Source of the DNA: Methanococcoides sp. EBM-47
GTDB lineage: Archaea > Halobacteriota > Methanosarcinia > Methanosarcinales > Methanosarcinaceae
Direction of reading: 5' to 3'
Assembly: GCA_001896725.1 (NCBI GenBank)
Contig: MPPA01000022.1
Coordinates: 62,001-126,000 of the forward strand
Length of the DNA stretch: 64,000 bases
Of the stretch, positions 1 through 15,586 are shown in pieces. The position numbers and the translations under genes were made by a program. Under the pieces are notes generated by a model. That model was not told the DNA's origin, did no database searches, and worked only from the letters and a program-made list of their open reading frames with translations. The number at the start of each line of letters is the position of its first letter. The first letter of the stretch is position 1.

Positions 1-191
1 ATTTCCTGCACTAGAGAAATCGCGTATCTCTGACCTACACCCTCCACACAAGATATGCTTGCTACATCACCGCTAAGGATTGCTTCGAGGGCATTTTGTT
101 CGGTGCCGAAGTATTCTATGAAACGTCTGGCCATTTTTTCCCCTATACGGGGAATATCGTTCAAGGAACGTATACTGTCATTGTGTTTCAT
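1..191 (-). CDS. Helix-hairpin-helix protein, N-terminal fragment (possibly MutS-like)
   Basis: Only the first 63 codons are in the window; the rest lies beyond base 1. The ATG at 191 follows a GTGAG ribosome-binding site and begins 13 bases after the stop of the preceding gene, so it is probably in the same operon. Residues 12-29 (DIPRIGEKMARRFIEYFG) and about 51-63 (VEGVGQRYAISLV) read as two helix-hairpin-helix DNA-binding motifs. Archaeal MutS-like ATPases of methanogens begin with such a segment, which would suit the DNA-repair neighbours, but the ATPase domain is not visible. The family is therefore an inference; the HhH reading itself is fairly safe. Confidence 0.6.
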   Translation of the reverse strand, partial: MKHNDSIRSLNDIPRIGEKMARRFIEYFGTEQNALEAILSGDVASISCVEGVGQRYAISLVQE

Positions 192-203
192 GCTCTCACG
201 TAC

Positions 204-1055
204 TTACATTTCAAAGAAATCTCCCAGTTTACAGGGAGATATCCCCCGTTCCACCTTGTATCTGTCCTTCATAGACATGCCACTGGCAGAAGAAGCAGAC
301 CAGGGCTGAAATTTCTTAGCCTGCTTTTTGTTTCTTCGACTGTCTATCATCTGGGAATCATAGTAAACGTCCCACAAATCCTCCACATCATCAGATTTTT
401 TCACGGTCGTCAGATCACCTAAGAATGAAGAAGTAACGACCATAAACCTGTCAAGACCAATAAAATTCCCGTTGCCGATCCATGCTTTATCTCCATGCAC
501 CACAGCAACAGGAAGGTCTGGGTTCTTCTTCGCCAGCCATCTGCAGAACATGTCTTCTACCCGATGTTCCGGTTTGATCTCGGCTGTAAGTATCCCCCTT
601 ACAAAAGAAGGTCTTGCGAACATGCAAAGTCTGTGATAGGAAAGTCTTACCTCTCGCATATAACGGTAACATTTCCTTTGCAGCTGGGTTTTTCCTGAAT
701 AAAGAGAAGTTACGCTCTCAGATGAGCTCAAATTTCTAACAAGTTCTGAAGGCTCACATTTTGCATGCCTTAGTACGAGATCGATGTAATGTATCAGGTC
801 AGGTTCTTTCCTGCAGGAATGATTTACATGGTGATACCAATGTTTACCAAATGCCTTTTCTGCCAGATGTGCTATTGCCACAGGTTCAAAGCCAACATGT
901 TCTAAATCCCTTTTCACTCCTGCAAAATCGATCTTTCTTCTAAGTTCTTCCAGATCTTTGGCATATACAAGGTGCGCATCTGGCAACTGTCTCAGTTTCA
1001 GGCAGGCAAGCAACACCCCTTCCACATTTGTCCTGAAGCCTATTATCAGGAACAT
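204..1055 (-). CDS. DUF4130-type protein, partner of radical SAM protein (TIGR03915-like)
   Basis: A 283-residue protein resembling the 'probable DNA metabolism protein' family (TIGR03915/DUF4130), which is typically encoded beside the radical SAM family TIGR03916. Its start overlaps the 3' end of the radical SAM gene by 10 bases, so the two are translationally coupled. The family C-terminal region with a WDVYYDSQMIDSRRN-like stretch (about residues 228-242) and many basic residues is visible; the N-terminal half has no motif I can assign. The biochemical role is unknown. The pairing and the downstream HhH gene point to nucleic-acid modification or repair (inference). Confidence 0.75.
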   Translation of the reverse strand: MFLIIGFRTNVEGVLLACLKLRQLPDAHLVYAKDLEELRRKIDFAGVKRDLEHVGFEPVAIAHLAEKAFGKHWYHHVNHSCRKEPDLIHYIDLVLRHAKCEPSELVRNLSSSESVTSLYSGKTQLQRKCYRYMREVRLSYHRLCMFARPSFVRGILTAEIKPEHRVEDMFCRWLAKKNPDLPVAVVHGDKAWIGNGNFIGLDRFMVVTSSFLGDLTTVKKSDDVEDLWDVYYDSQMIDSRRNKKQAKKFQPWSASSASGMSMKDRYKVERGISPCKLGDFFEM

Positions 1056-7162: not shown

Positions 7163-8593
7163 TCAAAATTCCCCATGAGCAGCAGCTTGTTTTTCAGGGA
7201 TATGTGCCTGTAGTTTGCGAACATATATAGATACCCAGCCGAAATTCATGAGGGATCCCAGCACATTTCCAAATACCAGTCCCCACCAGACACCTGTAAG
7301 TCCCATCCCTAGGTAATAGGAGAACAGGAAGGCAAATAATGGTATGAGAATAAGGGACCTGATAATTGTAGCAATTAAAGAGCTTGTACCTTTACCAGTA
7401 CCCTGGAACAATGATGTTGATAACAACCCCATGGCAGTTGTAGGGTAGAAAAGGAATACTATCTTCAGGAAGGCAGTTATGTCCTCAGTTATATGAGCGG
7501 CCGATTCAGCCTGTGTGAAAGCAGCAGCAATATAAGGTGCCGTAAAGAAGGTAAATATAGCAATTCCAGTTTCGATGATCACTCCCACTTTTATTGCATA
7601 AAGGAGTACCGACATTAGTTTTTTGTACTCATGTCCGCCATACATAAAACCTGATACGGTCATCACTGCAGTTCCAATTCCTACCAGTGGTGCTATTGCG
7701 ATCATCACCACGCGCCATCCCACAGCATAGACAGCAACACCATCTGTATTGTTCACTGCAATGATCACCAGGTTCATAATGACCATTGTAAAGGCCATAG
7801 ATAATTGCTGCATAGCTGATGGCAGGCCAACCTTTGATATTTCCTTAATGATATCCATATCCGGCCTGAAACCACGGAACTTGAAAGAAACGTAAGTATC
7901 GTTGTTCAGGAACAGCCACTTGGAGATCATAATTGCCGTTATGCCTAGTGAGAGCACAGTTGCCCATGCTGCTCCCTTTATACCTAATCCAAAAGTGTAA
8001 ATGAACAATGGATCTAAGGCAATGTTCAGAACTGCCCCAAATATCATTGCATACATAGCACGTTTAGCATCGCCTTCGCTGCGCAATATAGCACTTGCTA
8101 CATTAATGAAGAATATGAGGATACCACCGGCAAATACTATACGTCCATAGTCCATGGAAAGATCTATCGTCTTACCTGCTCCTGCAGCTTCAAAGATAGG
8201 TCTTGCAAATATGAACAAAGGTACACTCACAAGCAATGTGAGCACCAGCATAAGGACCATGCTATGGACTGCAACATTATCAGCGGCTTTTTTGTCTCCA
8301 GCGCCCAGTTTTCTGGATATGGCCGACCCTCCTCCAAGGCCAAGACCTGTGGATAGTGCGATCATGCTTGTGAAGAACGGGAACACAAAACCTATTGCTG
8401 CGAGAGCATCAGCGCCTAAGCCCGAAACCCAGAAAGTATCCACCAGGTTATAAACTGTCTGCACCGACATGGCCAGCATCATTGGCATACCCAATTTTAA
8501 GATTGCCTTTTTGGGATCGCCCGTTAGGGTTTTCATCCCTGAGGTCACATGGTCGGTTTTGTAGCTCTCGCCTGTAGCAGGGTTTTCATTCAT
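7163..8593 (-). CDS. MATE family efflux transporter
   Basis: A 476-residue multidrug and toxin extrusion protein with about 12 membrane helices arranged as two repeated halves. The N-terminal half contains 'MVQTVYNLVDTFWVSGLG'-type sequence (about residues 40-60) typical of MATE helix 1-2; the internal repeat starts about residue 245. Such carriers export cationic compounds using Na+ or H+ gradients. The start ATG overlaps the end of the MarR regulator gene by 8 bases, so the two form an operon driven from the palindromic MarR promoter. Substrate unknown; regulator and pump pairing suggests a response to a small toxic compound. Confidence 0.9.
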   Translation of the reverse strand: MNENPATGESYKTDHVTSGMKTLTGDPKKAILKLGMPMMLAMSVQTVYNLVDTFWVSGLGADALAAIGFVFPFFTSMIALSTGLGLGGGSAISRKLGAGDKKAADNVAVHSMVLMLVLTLLVSVPLFIFARPIFEAAGAGKTIDLSMDYGRIVFAGGILIFFINVASAILRSEGDAKRAMYAMIFGAVLNIALDPLFIYTFGLGIKGAAWATVLSLGITAIMISKWLFLNNDTYVSFKFRGFRPDMDIIKEISKVGLPSAMQQLSMAFTMVIMNLVIIAVNNTDGVAVYAVGWRVVMIAIAPLVGIGTAVMTVSGFMYGGHEYKKLMSVLLYAIKVGVIIETGIAIFTFFTAPYIAAAFTQAESAAHITEDITAFLKIVFLFYPTTAMGLLSTSLFQGTGKGTSSLIATIIRSLILIPLFAFLFSYYLGMGLTGVWWGLVFGNVLGSLMNFGWVSIYVRKLQAHIPEKQAAAHGEF

Positions 8594-9047
8594 CTGTGTT
8601 CTTCCTTGTCTGGTTCCGTTTTGAAATATTTGTCCCTGCTCTTTGGATCATGTTTCTGAAAGCCAGTTTTTCCTCCTCAGTGAAATCCTCCAGCAGAATA
8701 TCGTTCATGTCTTTTGAAACAGCCAATAATATATGTTCCATCTCTATTCCCTGTTCCGTTAAAAATACCTTGTATGCCCTTCTGTTATCAGGATCTATAA
8801 CTCTGTACACATATCCTGCATATTCCAGCTTGGCAATGGCCCTTGCACTGGTTGCCCGGTCGCATTTTAGAGATGTTGCGAGTTTTTCCTGGCTAATACC
8901 ATCCTCATACAGTAAAAGCATAAGGAACGGGAATTGTGCATCACTTATCCCATAAGGCTCGAGCTGTCGTCCCATGAAGTTGCGGATGGACCTGAACAGA
9001 TGGGATATATCTCTGCCAATAGATTCATGTTTTCTTAGTTTCTCCAT
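8586..9047 (-). CDS. MarR family transcriptional regulator
   Basis: A 153-residue winged-helix protein of the MarR family. 'DAQFPFLMLLLYEDGISQEKLATSLKCDRATSARAI' contains helices 2-4 with the recognition helix at about residues 62-78; 'RVIDPDNRRAYKVFLTEQG' (about 90-108) is the characteristic wing. MarR dimers bind palindromes and release on binding small phenolic or other ligands. The gene precedes and overlaps the MATE pump gene, and a 29-base near-perfect palindrome lies 19-47 bases upstream of its ATG, so auto-repression of the regulator-pump operon is the natural inference. Confidence 0.9.
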   Translation of the reverse strand: MEKLRKHESIGRDISHLFRSIRNFMGRQLEPYGISDAQFPFLMLLLYEDGISQEKLATSLKCDRATSARAIAKLEYAGYVYRVIDPDNRRAYKVFLTEQGIEMEHILLAVSKDMNDILLEDFTEEEKLAFRNMIQRAGTNISKRNQTRKNTDE

Positions 9048-9400: not shown

Positions 9401-10309
9401 TCAACTATCGCTACGATTCAGGTCTGTACCCATAAGCTCGAGAAATACTTCTTCAAGCGAGGGCTCGATGGTATTCATTTCTATTATCCTGCCTCCGTTT
9501 GCAGCTATATGTCCTGTGATCTCATTGATAGCATTCATGTCTGTAGTGGCAAGCACGAACCTGTCCTCCAGACGTTCCATGTTTTCGATACATATGCCTG
9601 CAACATCTTCCAGCATGAACTCCAGCCTGTAGAGGACTTTCGAATGATCCTCCCTTATCTGTGCGACAGAACCAAGTGTAACTTGCTTTCCATCTTTGAT
9701 TATGAGGATCCGGTCACAAAGGCTTTCCATCTGGTACAGGTTATGCGCACTGAAAATAATGGTCTTGCCTTTTTCTTTAAGAGATCTTATATATTCAGTT
9801 ATGAATCTGGAGGTCATGGGGTCAAGCCCGGAACCAGGTTCATCGTAGATGATCAGTTGAGGATCATTGATGAGGGACCTTGCGATAGCAACCTTACGGC
9901 GCATACCCTTTGAAAGATCGCCTATACGTCTGCCGGCGGCATTAAGCGAAAGATCGTTAAGAAGAGTTTTTGTCCTTTGTCTGATGGTGTGCTTTTTAAT
10001 GCCATATAGTTCTCCGAAGAAGAGTAAGTAATCTTCGACATACATGCTTTCGTAGAGAGAAGATTCTTCAGGCAAAAATCCGAGGAATGATTTAATCCTT
10101 ACAGGATCCGCTGATATATCTATATCATTTATCCGTATACTGCCTGCTGTAGGACGCACCAGACCGCTAAGCATTTTTAGAGTAGTTGTCTTTCCTGCAC
10201 CATTGGGACCTACTATACCAAATATCTCACCCTTATCAACATTAAAATCTAGCCGCTCCACTGCAGCAAAGTTACCATATTCCTTTCTCAATCCATTTAC
10301 TTCTATCAT
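9401..10309 (-). CDS. ABC-2 type transporter ATP-binding protein
   Basis: A 302-residue ABC ATPase. Walker A is G34-PNGAGKTT (residues 34-42), the signature is 'LSKGMRRKVAIARSL' (about 135-149), Walker B 'LIIYDEPGSGLD' (about 155-166) and the H-loop 'IIFSAHN' about 188-194. The long C-terminal tail (about 215-302) is typical of ATPases that pair with ABC-2 permeases. I start at the ATG at 10309, where 'MIEVNGLRKEYG' begins; the open frame extends 25 codons upstream through an A/T run that is clearly promoter. It is divergent from two ABC-2 permease genes, its probable partners. Confidence 0.9.
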   Translation of the reverse strand: MIEVNGLRKEYGNFAAVERLDFNVDKGEIFGIVGPNGAGKTTTLKMLSGLVRPTAGSIRINDIDISADPVRIKSFLGFLPEESSLYESMYVEDYLLFFGELYGIKKHTIRQRTKTLLNDLSLNAAGRRIGDLSKGMRRKVAIARSLINDPQLIIYDEPGSGLDPMTSRFITEYIRSLKEKGKTIIFSAHNLYQMESLCDRILIIKDGKQVTLGSVAQIREDHSKVLYRLEFMLEDVAGICIENMERLEDRFVLATTDMNAINEITGHIAANGGRIIEMNTIEPSLEEVFLELMGTDLNRSDS

Positions 10310-10329
10310 GTGCAATAAAGAATAATATT

Positions 10330-10360
10330 TCAATTTATATATATATATATATTTATTTAA
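10330..10360. promoter_or_regulatory. Divergent AT-rich promoter between ABC ATPase and permease genes
   Basis: A run of TA dinucleotides followed by TTTATTTAA, 20-50 bases before the ATPase ATG (10309) and about 100 before the permease ATG (10458). It probably holds the TATA box of the ATPase gene. The permease gene has its own candidate, TATAATAAAAAC-like sequence at about 10430-10448. Confidence 0.45.
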
Positions 10361-10457
10361 GATTCCGGATCCAATAGCGTTCAATGGTCAATACAATATA
10401 TGGGTAGCAAGCAGGTTCCATATAGATTAATATAATAAAAACATTATATATTATTTG

Positions 10458-12230
10458 ATGTCAGGCTGGTATACAATCGCTAAATGGGAATTCCTCAGAT
10501 CAGGAATGAAGTTCAGCCGCAGGTTTGTACTGGCAGTCCTTTTCACATTAGTGCTACTTACTATAGTATCATTTGCAGTGTCTTTTACAGGTATGAACCT
10601 AGACCAAAAGATATACAGTGTTTTTTCCACCTCCCAGGAACTGAACAATATCATAGAAGGCGACGCAAGGTTCTATATATTAACTGATGATGGCAAAGAT
10701 GCGGACCTAACGATCGTAGAGGACCGTGTATACCTCTCAGGTACAAAAAAGTCAGTTTCAGCTGCTGATGCACTTGAAAAGGTTTTCATTGCTCACAGAG
10801 AAACTGTCCTTGCATCGTATAACGATATTAACAACAGTCATCCTGTATGGGTCACGATCCATGACCTTGACAGACCTGAGAGTTTTCAGATACTGGGGAC
10901 TGCTACCCAGAAAGATGGTCAGGTTTCGGATGCTGGGTATGAAAATACAGGCAGTATAGGAAATTATAAAGAGAGCACAGCCGCAACCGGACAAACTTCT
11001 CATATTTTTTCTCCGGAAGAACTAGAAGATCTGGATAATAGTAACTCTAAAACATTATTTAATAGACAGACCATTGCCACTCCTTCTTATTTTATGCCAC
11101 CCATACCTTTCACGGCAATACTTTACTCTTTCTTATTCATCTTTCCTATCTACTTTGTTTCCCAATTCTATTCTTCCAGTATATTGGAAGAGAGGGTCAA
11201 CCGCAGATGTGAGTTGTTGCTTACGGCTCCTCTTAAGAGCAGGGACATCATACTTGGAAAAAGTATCCCATATGTGCTTGTCACCATGGTCCTACTGTCA
11301 GTTATTTCCCTTTATATTGAAAAACCCTCTAATATCCATGAACTGCGAACATCCATAGAGATGATAGGAGTGATATTTCCTGTTCTTCTCCTGTTCTTCT
11401 CATTGTCTTTCATTGCAGCCATATTTTCTCGCAGCTTCAAGGAACTGACATTCGCCATGGTATTCTTCTCTGTGATCGTTTCAGGATATCTGCTCTTTCC
11501 TGCCATGTTTGCAAATATACATTCAGTGAGCTCTATTTCTCCAATGACTCTCATAGTTAACTTGATCGAAGAGGGAAGCATAAGTTTTGGAAAGTATATC
11601 TTCTCTACATTACCTTTTTATCTTGTTGCATTGAGCATCTATGGCTTTGGTACGGCAATCTTTCGGGAAGAAGATCTCTTCAGCCAGAAAACCATGAAAG
11701 AAAAGACCCTGGATTGTATGGAACTGTTCCTTGGAGCACCTTTGGGTTCTGTATTTACTCTTAGCATTGTCTCTATCCCTTTCGTTTACATGGCGCAGCT
11801 AATGCTGATAGTGATGCTCTTCAATCTTCCTCTTCCTTACTCAATTATTGTGATGATAATACTATCGGCTCTTGTGGAAGAAATTGCAAAATCCGTAGGT
11901 ATATACACCATCATGAAAAGAGGATTAAAACCCGTCAACCTGAAAACTGCAGTATTGCTTGCATTGCTTTCAGGTGGTGGTTTTTTCTTTGGGGAGAAAC
12001 TCGTATCTGTGATAACCCTTGCACCTATTGCTTCCTCGGCATTCGGATCAGTGATGACCATGGGCACATTGCTCCTGATACCTTTGTTATTACATTTGGT
12101 CACTGCCATGATCACATCCCTGGGTGTGTACTTTACAGGTCCCCGATATTATGCATTTTTCCTATTAGCTGCAACAGGGGTACATGCCATATACAATACT
12201 TACCTGCTAAGGGGGCTTTTTTTTGGATAA
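10458..12230 (+). CDS. ABC-2 permease fused to a PrsW-like membrane protease domain
   Basis: A 590-residue membrane protein. The N-terminal part (to about residue 400) is an ABC-2 permease: one helix at about 25-45, a large extracytoplasmic domain to about 210, then helices; 'SSILEERVNRRCELLLTAPL' (about 240-260) is the usual ABC-2 coupling sequence. The C-terminal 160 residues have a second set of helices with E474-E475-x-x-K478, a GGGFFFGE motif ending at E513, H546 and H576-x-x-x-N580, the pattern of PrsW-type intramembrane proteases. PrsW enzymes cleave membrane-bound regulators. Start is the ATG at 10458. The next gene overlaps by 8 bases. Permease call is strong, protease activity is inferred. 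Confidence 0.8.
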   Translation: MSGWYTIAKWEFLRSGMKFSRRFVLAVLFTLVLLTIVSFAVSFTGMNLDQKIYSVFSTSQELNNIIEGDARFYILTDDGKDADLTIVEDRVYLSGTKKSVSAADALEKVFIAHRETVLASYNDINNSHPVWVTIHDLDRPESFQILGTATQKDGQVSDAGYENTGSIGNYKESTAATGQTSHIFSPEELEDLDNSNSKTLFNRQTIATPSYFMPPIPFTAILYSFLFIFPIYFVSQFYSSSILEERVNRRCELLLTAPLKSRDIILGKSIPYVLVTMVLLSVISLYIEKPSNIHELRTSIEMIGVIFPVLLLFFSLSFIAAIFSRSFKELTFAMVFFSVIVSGYLLFPAMFANIHSVSSISPMTLIVNLIEEGSISFGKYIFSTLPFYLVALSIYGFGTAIFREEDLFSQKTMKEKTLDCMELFLGAPLGSVFTLSIVSIPFVYMAQLMLIVMLFNLPLPYSIIVMIILSALVEEIAKSVGIYTIMKRGLKPVNLKTAVLLALLSGGGFFFGEKLVSVITLAPIASSAFGSVMTMGTLLLIPLLLHLVTAMITSLGVYFTGPRYYAFFLLAATGVHAIYNTYLLRGLFFG

Positions 12231-13323
12231 GAACAAAGTGTATCCGAAAAAGGTCATGACCATTGCCAGAAAGGAGTACAGCGGATTACTACTTGAAAAG
12301 ACGTTCATTCTCTCATTGCTTGTTCAGTTGTTCATTGCTTCCTTCTCTGCCTTCCTTGTTGTAGGGCTTACATCCTTCTATGATCCCATGGCGTTGCAAG
12401 GTATGCAAATGAAGGAATCAAAGATAGGGGTTATTGGGGATACCGACGGGGAGCTCTTCAAACTGATGAAAATAAGTGATCTGGAACCGATCAAATATGA
12501 TGATTTCGGAGAAGCGTATAGTGATTTCTATGAGCGGAAAATAGATGCTATAATGAACATACCTAATGAAATGGCCGAAGGAACTGGTCTGATCAATCTG
12601 GATATATATATCCCAAGGTCCGAACTGAAAGCGACCATTGTTTCACTGCAGCTGAAAAAACCACTTGAGAAATTTGAACAAAGTGTCAGGACCATAAGAA
12701 CTGCAAGACTTGAGGGTTACACACCCCTTGACATCCAGATCATGAGATGGGATCAAGGTACATCTTCCAGCAAGCTGGAATTTATCTACGTGGCCCTTTT
12801 ACCATTGCTGATGTTCACCCCTGCTTTCATATCAGGTGGACTTGTTATTGATATGATCACCGAAGAATTTGAACGCAAAACACTGGAATTGCTGCTTGTT
12901 TCTCCTGTATCTTTGTTAGATGTGATTTACGGAAAAACGTTGGTCGCAACTGCCATCTCACCTGTACAATCTTTGGCTTGGATGTTATTGCTGGGGCTTA
13001 ATGGCATACGGATCAATAACTTTACTGGGATCCTCTTAATAGTGGTCATTGTTTCCTTAACACTTGTTATTGCAGGCAGTATTATAGCTGTCTTGTGCAA
13101 GGAAAGGGGAACATCCCAGTTGTTCTATTCACTTGTACTTATACTTCTGTTCATGTCATCTTATCTATATACCAATTCACCCCTTAACCTTGTTTCCAGG
13201 CTTGCGCTTGACAGCATAGGATATATGGAAGCTTTTACATGGATTGCAGGATACACATGCCTTGCTGTTCTGTTGTTATGGGCTCTGGCCAGTATCGTAG
13301 AAAAAGAACATATGAAGGTCTGA
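12223..13323 (+). CDS. ABC-2 type transporter permease
   Basis: A 366-residue ABC-2 permease: helix at about 25-48, an extracytoplasmic domain to about 185, then five helices, with 'MITEEFERKTLELLLVSPVSLLDVIYGKT' (about 212-240) as the conserved cytoplasmic coupling loop. It pairs with the preceding permease-PrsW gene and the divergent ATPase as a probable exporter. The start is uncertain: TTG at 12223 overlaps the upstream stop by 8 bases and follows a GGGGG stretch, while the ATG at 12256 would begin at 'MTIARKEYS', a common start for such permeases. I keep the longer form. Substrate unknown. Confidence 0.85.
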   Translation: MDKNKVYPKKVMTIARKEYSGLLLEKTFILSLLVQLFIASFSAFLVVGLTSFYDPMALQGMQMKESKIGVIGDTDGELFKLMKISDLEPIKYDDFGEAYSDFYERKIDAIMNIPNEMAEGTGLINLDIYIPRSELKATIVSLQLKKPLEKFEQSVRTIRTARLEGYTPLDIQIMRWDQGTSSSKLEFIYVALLPLLMFTPAFISGGLVIDMITEEFERKTLELLLVSPVSLLDVIYGKTLVATAISPVQSLAWMLLLGLNGIRINNFTGILLIVVIVSLTLVIAGSIIAVLCKERGTSQLFYSLVLILLFMSSYLYTNSPLNLVSRLALDSIGYMEAFTWIAGYTCLAVLLLWALASIVEKEHMKV

Positions 13324-13324
13324 T

Positions 13325-15118
13325 ATGAAAAGAAACCTACATATTTTTTTTATTTTCATTATACTGTTGTTCTCTATCATTCCCTGCAGTGCATATGATT
13401 TTCAGCATGAGGAGATCTGGGTGCATAAAGGGAGTTTTGAGCTGGGTCCAGGGGAAAAGGCTACAATTGAGCGATATACTGTGAAGGTCTATAGACTTGA
13501 TCAGGAAGCTGTAGAGTCATCGGCTGTGATCCTTGTGTATAAGAACGATGACTTCAAAAAAGTGTATTATATGGATGCTGGTCCAAACGCTCAGAGGGTA
13601 TATGACAATGACCTTAAGATCAAGGTAAATGGAATATCTTCGGGCAAGATCTCTATTGTTCTGTATGGGCATGAATTTGAGAAAGTATGGGTGCTGTCAA
13701 CGCCCAAGATCTCTTTATCAAAGGGGGATATGATATCAGATGGAGCATATGCCATATCCTTGGCAGATCTTTCCAGTAAAGAGGTAAATATTTCAGTTAC
13801 TTCCCCATCAGGGAAGCATGAGAACGTTTTTACTTTACATGATTACAAAAAATATAATAATGAACTTATGGTCAGGCTGGTTTACATCGACAAAGACCGA
13901 TCAAAAGCATTCATTGAAACATACAGGCCAGGGAAACCAGATATCGAGGTCTCTTTATCACCCTCCAGTGATATCTTTGAAGCAGATGAAGATATTTCGT
14001 GCATGCTTCGGGTAACTAATAATGGCACTTTACCTCTAAGAAAGGTCAAAGTAGAAAATAGGGCGAGTGAAGGTATATTTAACAAACAGGCACTATCACT
14101 GGGAACTCTTGCACCATTACAAACAGTAGCATTAACCATGGGTCTTGATATTCCAGTGGCAGCAAGAGGCCGATCAATATTTGTCACAACAGAAATATCG
14201 GGTGAAGACCATTCAGGCAACACATATTACGCAACGGATACACAAGATTTCTTTGTAGGGCCCTATATTCATATAACTAAAGAGATCAGAGGGGATAACG
14301 CTCTTTACGGAAAAACTATTGTTGCAACCCACGAACAAGTGAGGGTCAGCCTTAAGATAAAGAACATGAACGATCTACCTGTAGCATTGACAGTAGCCGA
14401 TAGCGTACCCGATTCTTTCGTGTTGCAGGATACAAAAAAGCTTGAGTGGAAACTGCAGGTAGCTCCTCATGCTACTGATGAGATCACTTATATTGTTAGT
14501 CCACGCATTACTGGTAATTTCACTTTAGGAAATGCCGTTGCTATCTGGGAAAGCAATGATGATGTATATGAGGTAACATCCGCCTCCCCGGAGCTAATGG
14601 TTAACGGTTCCTTTGTAGTAGCAGATAAGATCGTTAATACCGAGTATGCAATGAAAGGGGAATATATTACTGTTATCTTACAGGTGTCAAATGTTGGTGA
14701 CCAGGAAGTAGAGGTGATCATGCATGACAAGGTTCCCATAGGTGCTGATCTTGTCAACGGCATTTTAGACTGGTCTGCTAAACTTGCCCCGGGAGAAACA
14801 TCTCTGCAGAGCTACGATATAGTGTTCTCAGAGGCTGGGGATTATGTGCTGCCGGAATTAGAGGTAAAGTATACTGATAAGCAGTTGAAAGAAATAACCA
14901 TTTACTCAGAGCAGGTAGAAATGTACATTGGTAAGGAAGTTGTATCTGATGATCCTGAGGCTTTTGGTGTACCATCTGTGGTAAATGGACCACAAACAAG
15001 TGAACTTACAGATCTGCAGGCTGCAAGTTTCCTTGTGTCTTCTTTTATAGGGATTTTTTGCATTGTAACAGTGATCCCTATAGTGATATTTCTTTTAATA
15101 AGAAAAGTATATATGTGA
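13325..15118 (+). CDS. Secreted/membrane-anchored CARDB/DUF11-repeat protein
   Basis: A 597-residue exported protein: signal peptide at about 1-23 ending 'CSAYD', a large extracellular region, and a C-terminal helix at about 570-592 followed by RKVYM. Residues about 205-530 contain three immunoglobulin-like repeats of the COG1361/DUF11 type, each with 'VTNNGTLPLRKVKV', 'KNMNDLPVALTVADSVPDSF' or 'VSNVGDQEVEVIMHDKVPIG'. Such proteins sit on archaeal envelopes. It follows the permease gene after one base, so it belongs to the ABC operon and may be its cargo, a periplasmic-side partner, or a substrate of the PrsW-like domain (inference). Confidence 0.8.
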   Translation: MKRNLHIFFIFIILLFSIIPCSAYDFQHEEIWVHKGSFELGPGEKATIERYTVKVYRLDQEAVESSAVILVYKNDDFKKVYYMDAGPNAQRVYDNDLKIKVNGISSGKISIVLYGHEFEKVWVLSTPKISLSKGDMISDGAYAISLADLSSKEVNISVTSPSGKHENVFTLHDYKKYNNELMVRLVYIDKDRSKAFIETYRPGKPDIEVSLSPSSDIFEADEDISCMLRVTNNGTLPLRKVKVENRASEGIFNKQALSLGTLAPLQTVALTMGLDIPVAARGRSIFVTTEISGEDHSGNTYYATDTQDFFVGPYIHITKEIRGDNALYGKTIVATHEQVRVSLKIKNMNDLPVALTVADSVPDSFVLQDTKKLEWKLQVAPHATDEITYIVSPRITGNFTLGNAVAIWESNDDVYEVTSASPELMVNGSFVVADKIVNTEYAMKGEYITVILQVSNVGDQEVEVIMHDKVPIGADLVNGILDWSAKLAPGETSLQSYDIVFSEAGDYVLPELEVKYTDKQLKEITIYSEQVEMYIGKEVVSDDPEAFGVPSVVNGPQTSELTDLQAASFLVSSFIGIFCIVTVIPIVIFLLIRKVYM

Positions 15119-15181
15119 TATCTTATTAATATATTAATATTATATGTTTATCATTTGTGCCAAATATGCTATGGGGATACC

Positions 15182-15586
15182 ATGAACATTGCATATTCCG
15201 TTATCTCACTGATCATGTTCACGCTGCTAACATTACTGGCTATTTTGCTCATGGTGTACATATCATCAGCAGTTGCTATACTTGCCCTTTTATTGTTGCC
15301 ACTCACATGTATCTTCATTATGCCGGATACGGCATTGTCTTTCCTATCTTTCAGGCATGTAGTGCTTGCCGGAGGAAATGTACCTATCAACAACTATCAT
15401 GTCTTGTTTTTCGTCTGGTCGGCACTCGTTGGTATGATAGTTTATTCAGAGATCTTTACATGGTACTTAGGAAAAAAAGAAACTAAGAAGGCTCGGATAA
15501 GAGCTGAAGGAACAAAACCTTCAAAAAATATTCTATCTTCTTTCATGGGCATTGTTTCAAAGACCATTTCCCTCTTTCAGAGGTAA
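15182..15586 (+). CDS. Small membrane protein at the end of the ABC operon
   Basis: A 134-residue protein with three predicted helices: about 5-28 (VISLIMFTLLTLLAILLMVY), 29-47 and 72-92, then a basic cytoplasmic tail (KKETKKARIRAEGTKPSK). I start at the ATG at 15182, which has GGGGAT just upstream, rather than a TTG nine codons earlier. It lies 63 bases after the repeat protein and probably belongs to the same unit. No family is recognised. Confidence 0.6.
   Translation: MNIAYSVISLIMFTLLTLLAILLMVYISSAVAILALLLLPLTCIFIMPDTALSFLSFRHVVLAGGNVPINNYHVLFFVWSALVGMIVYSEIFTWYLGKKETKKARIRAEGTKPSKNILSSFMGIVSKTISLFQR

Follow-up and report, generated by a model that had tools for sequence, protein, structure and literature searches.

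A predicted PrsW-type intramembrane protease domain fused to an ABC-2 permease in Methanococcoides and other Halobacteriota

Little is understood of how membranes are cleared of used signal peptides and of the transmembrane fragments left by cleavage, a question hardly studied in archaea, and we know of no function assigned to PrsW in archaea. ABC transport is tied to intramembrane proteolysis and the export of cleaved peptides in EcsAB, which is required for intramembrane proteolysis by RasP and has been proposed to clean peptides from the membrane (PMC2996298); in S. aureus, Eep and EcsAB jointly make exported linear peptides (PMC7157817). Both pairs are evidence that ABC transport and intramembrane proteolysis can operate as a single pathway. 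A protease and an ABC exporter share one chain in the PCAT1-type peptidase-containing exporters with their C39 leader peptidase. The NCBIfam family NF041647 (bacterial ABC permease subunit/CPBP intramembrane protease) has an intramembrane protease at the C-terminus of an ABC-2 permease, and this protease shares its superfamily with the domain described here. PrsW itself (PF13367) is the site-1 protease of RsiW in B. subtilis, with a predicted active site of EExxK, a His in the fifth helix and HxxxD in the sixth; across the family these appear as EExxK, a His in the penultimate helix and HxxxN/D in the last (PMC4602095), as in the present domain. In PrsW-dependent polymorphic-toxin systems, PrsW has been proposed both to extrude and to process the protein fused to it (PMC3482391). 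Here, we describe a locus of Methanococcoides sp. EBM-47 in which an ABC-2 permease carries a predicted PrsW-type domain, found in a window of 64,000 nucleotides, by which we mean the whole stretch of DNA that was analysed.

An earlier note, made from the letters alone, had listed the genes of this locus and the motifs of the fused domain; the genes are all in the ORF list at their coordinates, and the motif positions hold with numbering from the ATG (Table 1). With ABC-2 permease domains in both permeases (PF12698) and a CcmA/DrrA-type ATPase, the exporter belongs to the ABC-2 (type V) class. The same note had drawn a single export operon: the permeases, the surface protein and the small membrane protein do form a plus-strand run, but the ATPase lies on the minus strand, in another transcription unit. 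Its probable start is an internal ATG near 10309, which would give a protein of ~302 aa, like the ATPases of close relatives (~300 aa). The three Ig-like domains attributed to the surface protein have marginal DUF7507, BatD and CARDB matches in Pfam behind them. Next to the ATPase lie a MATE transporter and a MarR regulator; several loci of Methanomethylovorans and Methanolobus conserve the two beside the cassette, a hint that the setting is one of efflux or stress.

Table 1. Features of the locus in window coordinates, with domain matches from Pfam.
Feature	Residues	Position	Strand	Remarks
MATE transporter and MarR regulator		7163-9047	-	neighbours of the cassette
ABC ATPase, CcmA/DrrA type		9401..10384	-	PF00005 and DrrA1-3_C; divergent from the permeases
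Fusion permease, 590 aa from ATG		10458..12230	+	ORF opens at TTG 10455
Fusion permease, ABC-2 half	1-401			PF12698 match at residues 24-396
Fusion permease, predicted PrsW-type protease domain	432-589
Predicted PrsW-type domain, as modelled alone	424-590	11727..12227	+	PF13367, profile comparison, invariance, AF2
Motifs of the predicted PrsW-type domain	474-478; 508-514; 542; 546; 576-580			EExxK; GFFFGEK; P542; H546; HxxYN
Second ABC-2 permease, 366 aa		12223..13323	+	PF12698, 72 bits; overlaps 3' end of the fusion gene
Surface protein		13325..15118	+	signal peptide, N-terminal beta-type region, Ig-like DUF7507/BatD/CARDB-type domains, C-terminal transmembrane anchor
Small membrane protein, 143-aa ORF		15155..15586	+	start in homologues at ATG 15182
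Two-gene module of surface and small membrane protein		13325-15586	+

The HMM search that had been proposed as a check places the C-terminal part of the fusion at 26.1-26.9 bits against PF13367 (PrsW-protease), above the cut-off of 23.5, the highest score being reached with the domain cut as residues 424-590. PF13367 is absent from the full-length Pfam scan of the fusion, probably owing to the HMMER filters, and a slightly longer domain cut also gave no match, but the domain was hit in the genome search as well as when scanned alone. Because the single-sequence match is marginal, modest in score and dependent on the domain cut, we place the weight of the identification on a profile comparison. 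Aligned with hhalign, 67 fused domains match 26 stand-alone PrsW proteins of the same phylum with a probability of 94.5 (E 7e-8) and in the expected register, EExxK on EExxK, GFFFGE on GFxxxE, His on His and HxxYN on HxxYN. PF13367 in turn matches 27 of the 67 fused domains at E <= 0.01. CPBP/Rce1 was considered as an identity and rejected, given an hhalign probability of 5.6 against archaeal CPBP domains; one fused domain in the 67 gave a weak Rce1-like match. By motif comparison the predicted PrsW active site is complete, and assignment to the glutamic, APH-1/CPBP superfamily of intramembrane proteases is the best explanation of the sequence. The fused clade is a divergent PrsW subfamily: it carries GFFxGEK and has no FD...DG, whereas the 26 stand-alone archaeal proteins have GF..EN and FD...DG, two features conserved among those 26 and not known to define the family. 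Since EK stands in place of EN after the second glutamate and FD...DG is absent, specificity and even chemistry may differ.

The earlier note had made its proposal depend on conservation of the active-site residues in homologues, and all six signature residues are invariant in the 67 aligned fusions, whose identity to the window protein falls as low as 26%. E474, E475, K478, E513, K514, P542, H546 and H576 do not vary in any of the 67, and position 580 is N in 63 and Asp in the other 4. Only 8 positions of the 167-residue C-terminal alignment are invariant and all six signature residues are among them, for which a crude hypergeometric estimate gives a chance of about 1e-9. The same motifs are present in 9 more distant fusions, and a search for active-site loss in the most divergent members revealed none. 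Invariance in 67 fusions, with the same motifs in 9 distant ones, argues for a working enzyme, as predicted from sequence. A PrsW-like protease fused to an ABC-2 permease, the core of the earlier proposal, is thus supported by the PF13367 match, the profile comparison and residue invariance alike.

The AF2 model of the fusion is confident (mean pLDDT 80, pTM 0.74; pLDDT 87.8 for the PrsW-type domain alone) and shows a six-helix ABC-2 fold followed by a five-helix domain, with 11 predicted transmembrane helices in all. The modelled permease half consists of an elbow helix, TM1, a large and partly disordered outside region (136-207) and TM2-TM6; a coupling helix (251-256) is present, as is the re-entrant segment that ABC-2 exporters typically have. 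Between the halves runs an amphipathic helix (413-426), and the five further helices come after it. Positive charges sit on the loops predicted to be inside. From where they fall on their helices, the active-site residues would be at mid-membrane or in the outer half. In Foldseek the whole fusion retrieves ABC-2-type pumps, none at E <= 0.001; for the domain, the top PDB entries are a chain of gamma-secretase (APH-1), ranked first, and a subunit of the BOS complex, both weak matches and neither at E <= 0.001. No sequence relatives were found in the PDB.

The survey of other archaea suggested in the earlier note was made in depth in 295 sampled Halobacteriota genomes, and the fused domain was found in 137 of them, nearly always in frames of > 500 aa. 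A search with the permease half returned the same long frames, and the few leftovers were weak matches to ordinary permeases. Searches with each half found no clear split or unfused homologues, save for cut contigs and likely frameshifts; two copies of the gene (L068, L094) appear to be split or frameshifted. Trees built from either half agree in 28 well-supported splits, with 0 supported conflicts, so the protease and the pump have been inherited as one unit and the fusion is old. At the level of gene sequence, the linkage of the permease half and the PrsW domain is obligate and ancient, and the fusion combines a complete permease half with a complete PrsW active-site signature. The second permease adjoins the fusion in essentially all loci, with a median overlap of 7 bp; the exception flagged by script (L079) also has it, with an over-long predicted start. 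An ATPase lies <= 1.5 kb away in 56 of 67 distinct loci (42 divergent, 14 co-directional), and several of the 11 loci without one within 1.5 kb end at contig edges. Among 72,556 plasmids, mostly bacterial, the only match is haloarchaeal: a cassette of ATPase, fusion and permease, all co-directional, on a 540-kb plasmid of Haladaptatus salinisoli (L140:5093-8872). Its fusion, WP_227356692.1, is annotated 'ABC transporter permease subunit', and public annotation obscures the fusion. Another genome of the phylum has a different PrsW fusion of 586 aa, with three FHA domains behind the PrsW domain (L150:3145-4905).

The best explanation of the locus, in which we have about even confidence, is a "cut and clear" exporter of two unlike permeases with a shared ATPase, one permease carrying an intact PrsW-type intramembrane protease. 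The PrsW-type domain would cleave hydrophobic substrates embedded in the membrane, be they remnants of signal peptides, transmembrane anchors or small membrane peptides, inside the bilayer, near its outer half, and the ABC part would then spend ATP to expel the fragments, so that cutting and clearing would take place in one machine. Protease activity, substrate, transport direction and the coupling of the two parts are what we infer, and the simplest view is that one and the same substrate in the membrane is both cut and exported. Since the core has no conserved cargo gene next to it, that substrate is probably general, a class such as peptide remnants or anchors rather than a single dedicated cargo. 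A conserved alternative cargo gene downstream was not found in other families, in which the neighbours are ProRS, LysRS, NikR, a chaperonin, transporters and others. If the explanation is true, the covalent fusion of protease and exporter would allow a direct test of the coupling between intramembrane cleavage and ABC export in a group amenable to genetics, and there would be a general reason for the recurrent meeting of ABC-2 exporters and intramembrane proteases. The fusion is present in about half of the Halobacteriota, haloarchaea included, as the Haladaptatus plasmid homologue illustrates.

An unlikely alternative is a sensor: a compound active on the envelope would be transported or sensed by the ABC part, and the PrsW domain would make the site-1 cut in a membrane-bound regulator, much as B. 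subtilis PrsW acts on RsiW. No membrane-bound regulator is conserved adjoining the core, and we know of no sigma/anti-sigma pair of the RsiW type in Archaea. The MATE and MarR genes beside the cassette in several Methanosarcinaceae, which suggest a stress or efflux setting, would suit such a sensor, as would the anti-sigma factor that the best-studied PrsW cleaves (PMC4602095).

Rather doubtful is a dedicated maturation exporter, comparable to the C39-peptidase ABC exporters, in which the fused protease would strip the leader or anchor of one secreted peptide or protein. The cargo could here be the surface protein, which has both a signal peptide and a C-terminal anchor and is encoded 3' of the permeases in 13 distinct Methanosarcinaceae loci. 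However, relatives of the surface protein occur in eight genomes without the fusion (G007, G010, G011, G020, G023, G026, G031, G036) and away from it in five fusion-bearing genomes (G008, G021, G024, G038, G042); they are full-length there and usually accompanied by the small membrane protein. Conversely, the core of ATPase, fusion and second permease occurs without the surface and small membrane proteins in most families of the phylum. The surface protein was accordingly rejected as an obligate partner and is an accessory neighbour in Methanosarcinaceae, no defining part of the core. This independence of the module from the fusion weakens the earlier suggestion that the surface repeat protein next door is processed by the fused protease; the exporter may cleave its cargo during export. 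Surface and small membrane protein form a two-gene Methanosarcinales module in varied surroundings, which include a protein with an Arch_fla_DE (archaellum) domain and cobalt-transport ABC genes.

It is improbable that the PrsW-type domain is a non-cleaving, structural part of the transporter like APH-1 in gamma-secretase, which is the closest solved fold (a weak Foldseek match) and shows that the fold can act as a non-proteolytic scaffold: the motifs round the active site do differ from those of stand-alone PrsW, but APH-1 has lost the glutamates, and the fusions, in a domain that otherwise varies, never depart from the glutamate pair, the lysine, the Glu of the second helix or the two histidines, which makes a scaffold less likely.

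The earlier note knew of no described system of this design. Nothing relevant on PrsW- or CPBP-permease fusions was found in the open-access papers searched, but NF041647 is a named bacterial counterpart. Its permease half matches the second (partner) permease of the window, at 52.8 bits over that half only against a cut-off of 435; the window proteins are far below this cut-off, which none of 60 Halobacteriota genomes passes either. The protease in NF041647 is CPBP, whereas here the other type of permease carries it and it is of the PrsW kind. Hence, the fusion of exporter and protease has probably happened more than once. A search with PADLOC gave no match, leaving membership of a defence system unsupported. 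PCAT1-type exporters differ in having a cytosolic cysteine peptidase and a different exporter type, and no protein of the locus has a C39 match in Pfam. PrsW in the polymorphic-toxin systems is fused to toxins or signalling domains, and the text consulted on them does not mention permease fusions (PMC3482391). Compared with PF13367 PrsW, the present domain is fused behind an ABC-2 permease and has the five-helix core only; compared with stand-alone archaeal PrsW, it has GEK in place of GF..EN and is without FD...DG. No EcsB-type permease family is among the Pfam matches of the window proteins, and EcsAB with RasP or Eep are separate proteins of Firmicutes, with a metalloprotease of another family, where here a single polypeptide would hold both functions. 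Somewhat short of even confidence, we propose that archaea possess an ancient machine whose intramembrane proteolysis is coupled, within one polypeptide, to removal of the fragments with energy from ATP, a membrane-cleaning or peptide-releasing exporter that would have evolved separately from both EcsAB with RasP and the CPBP-permease fusions.
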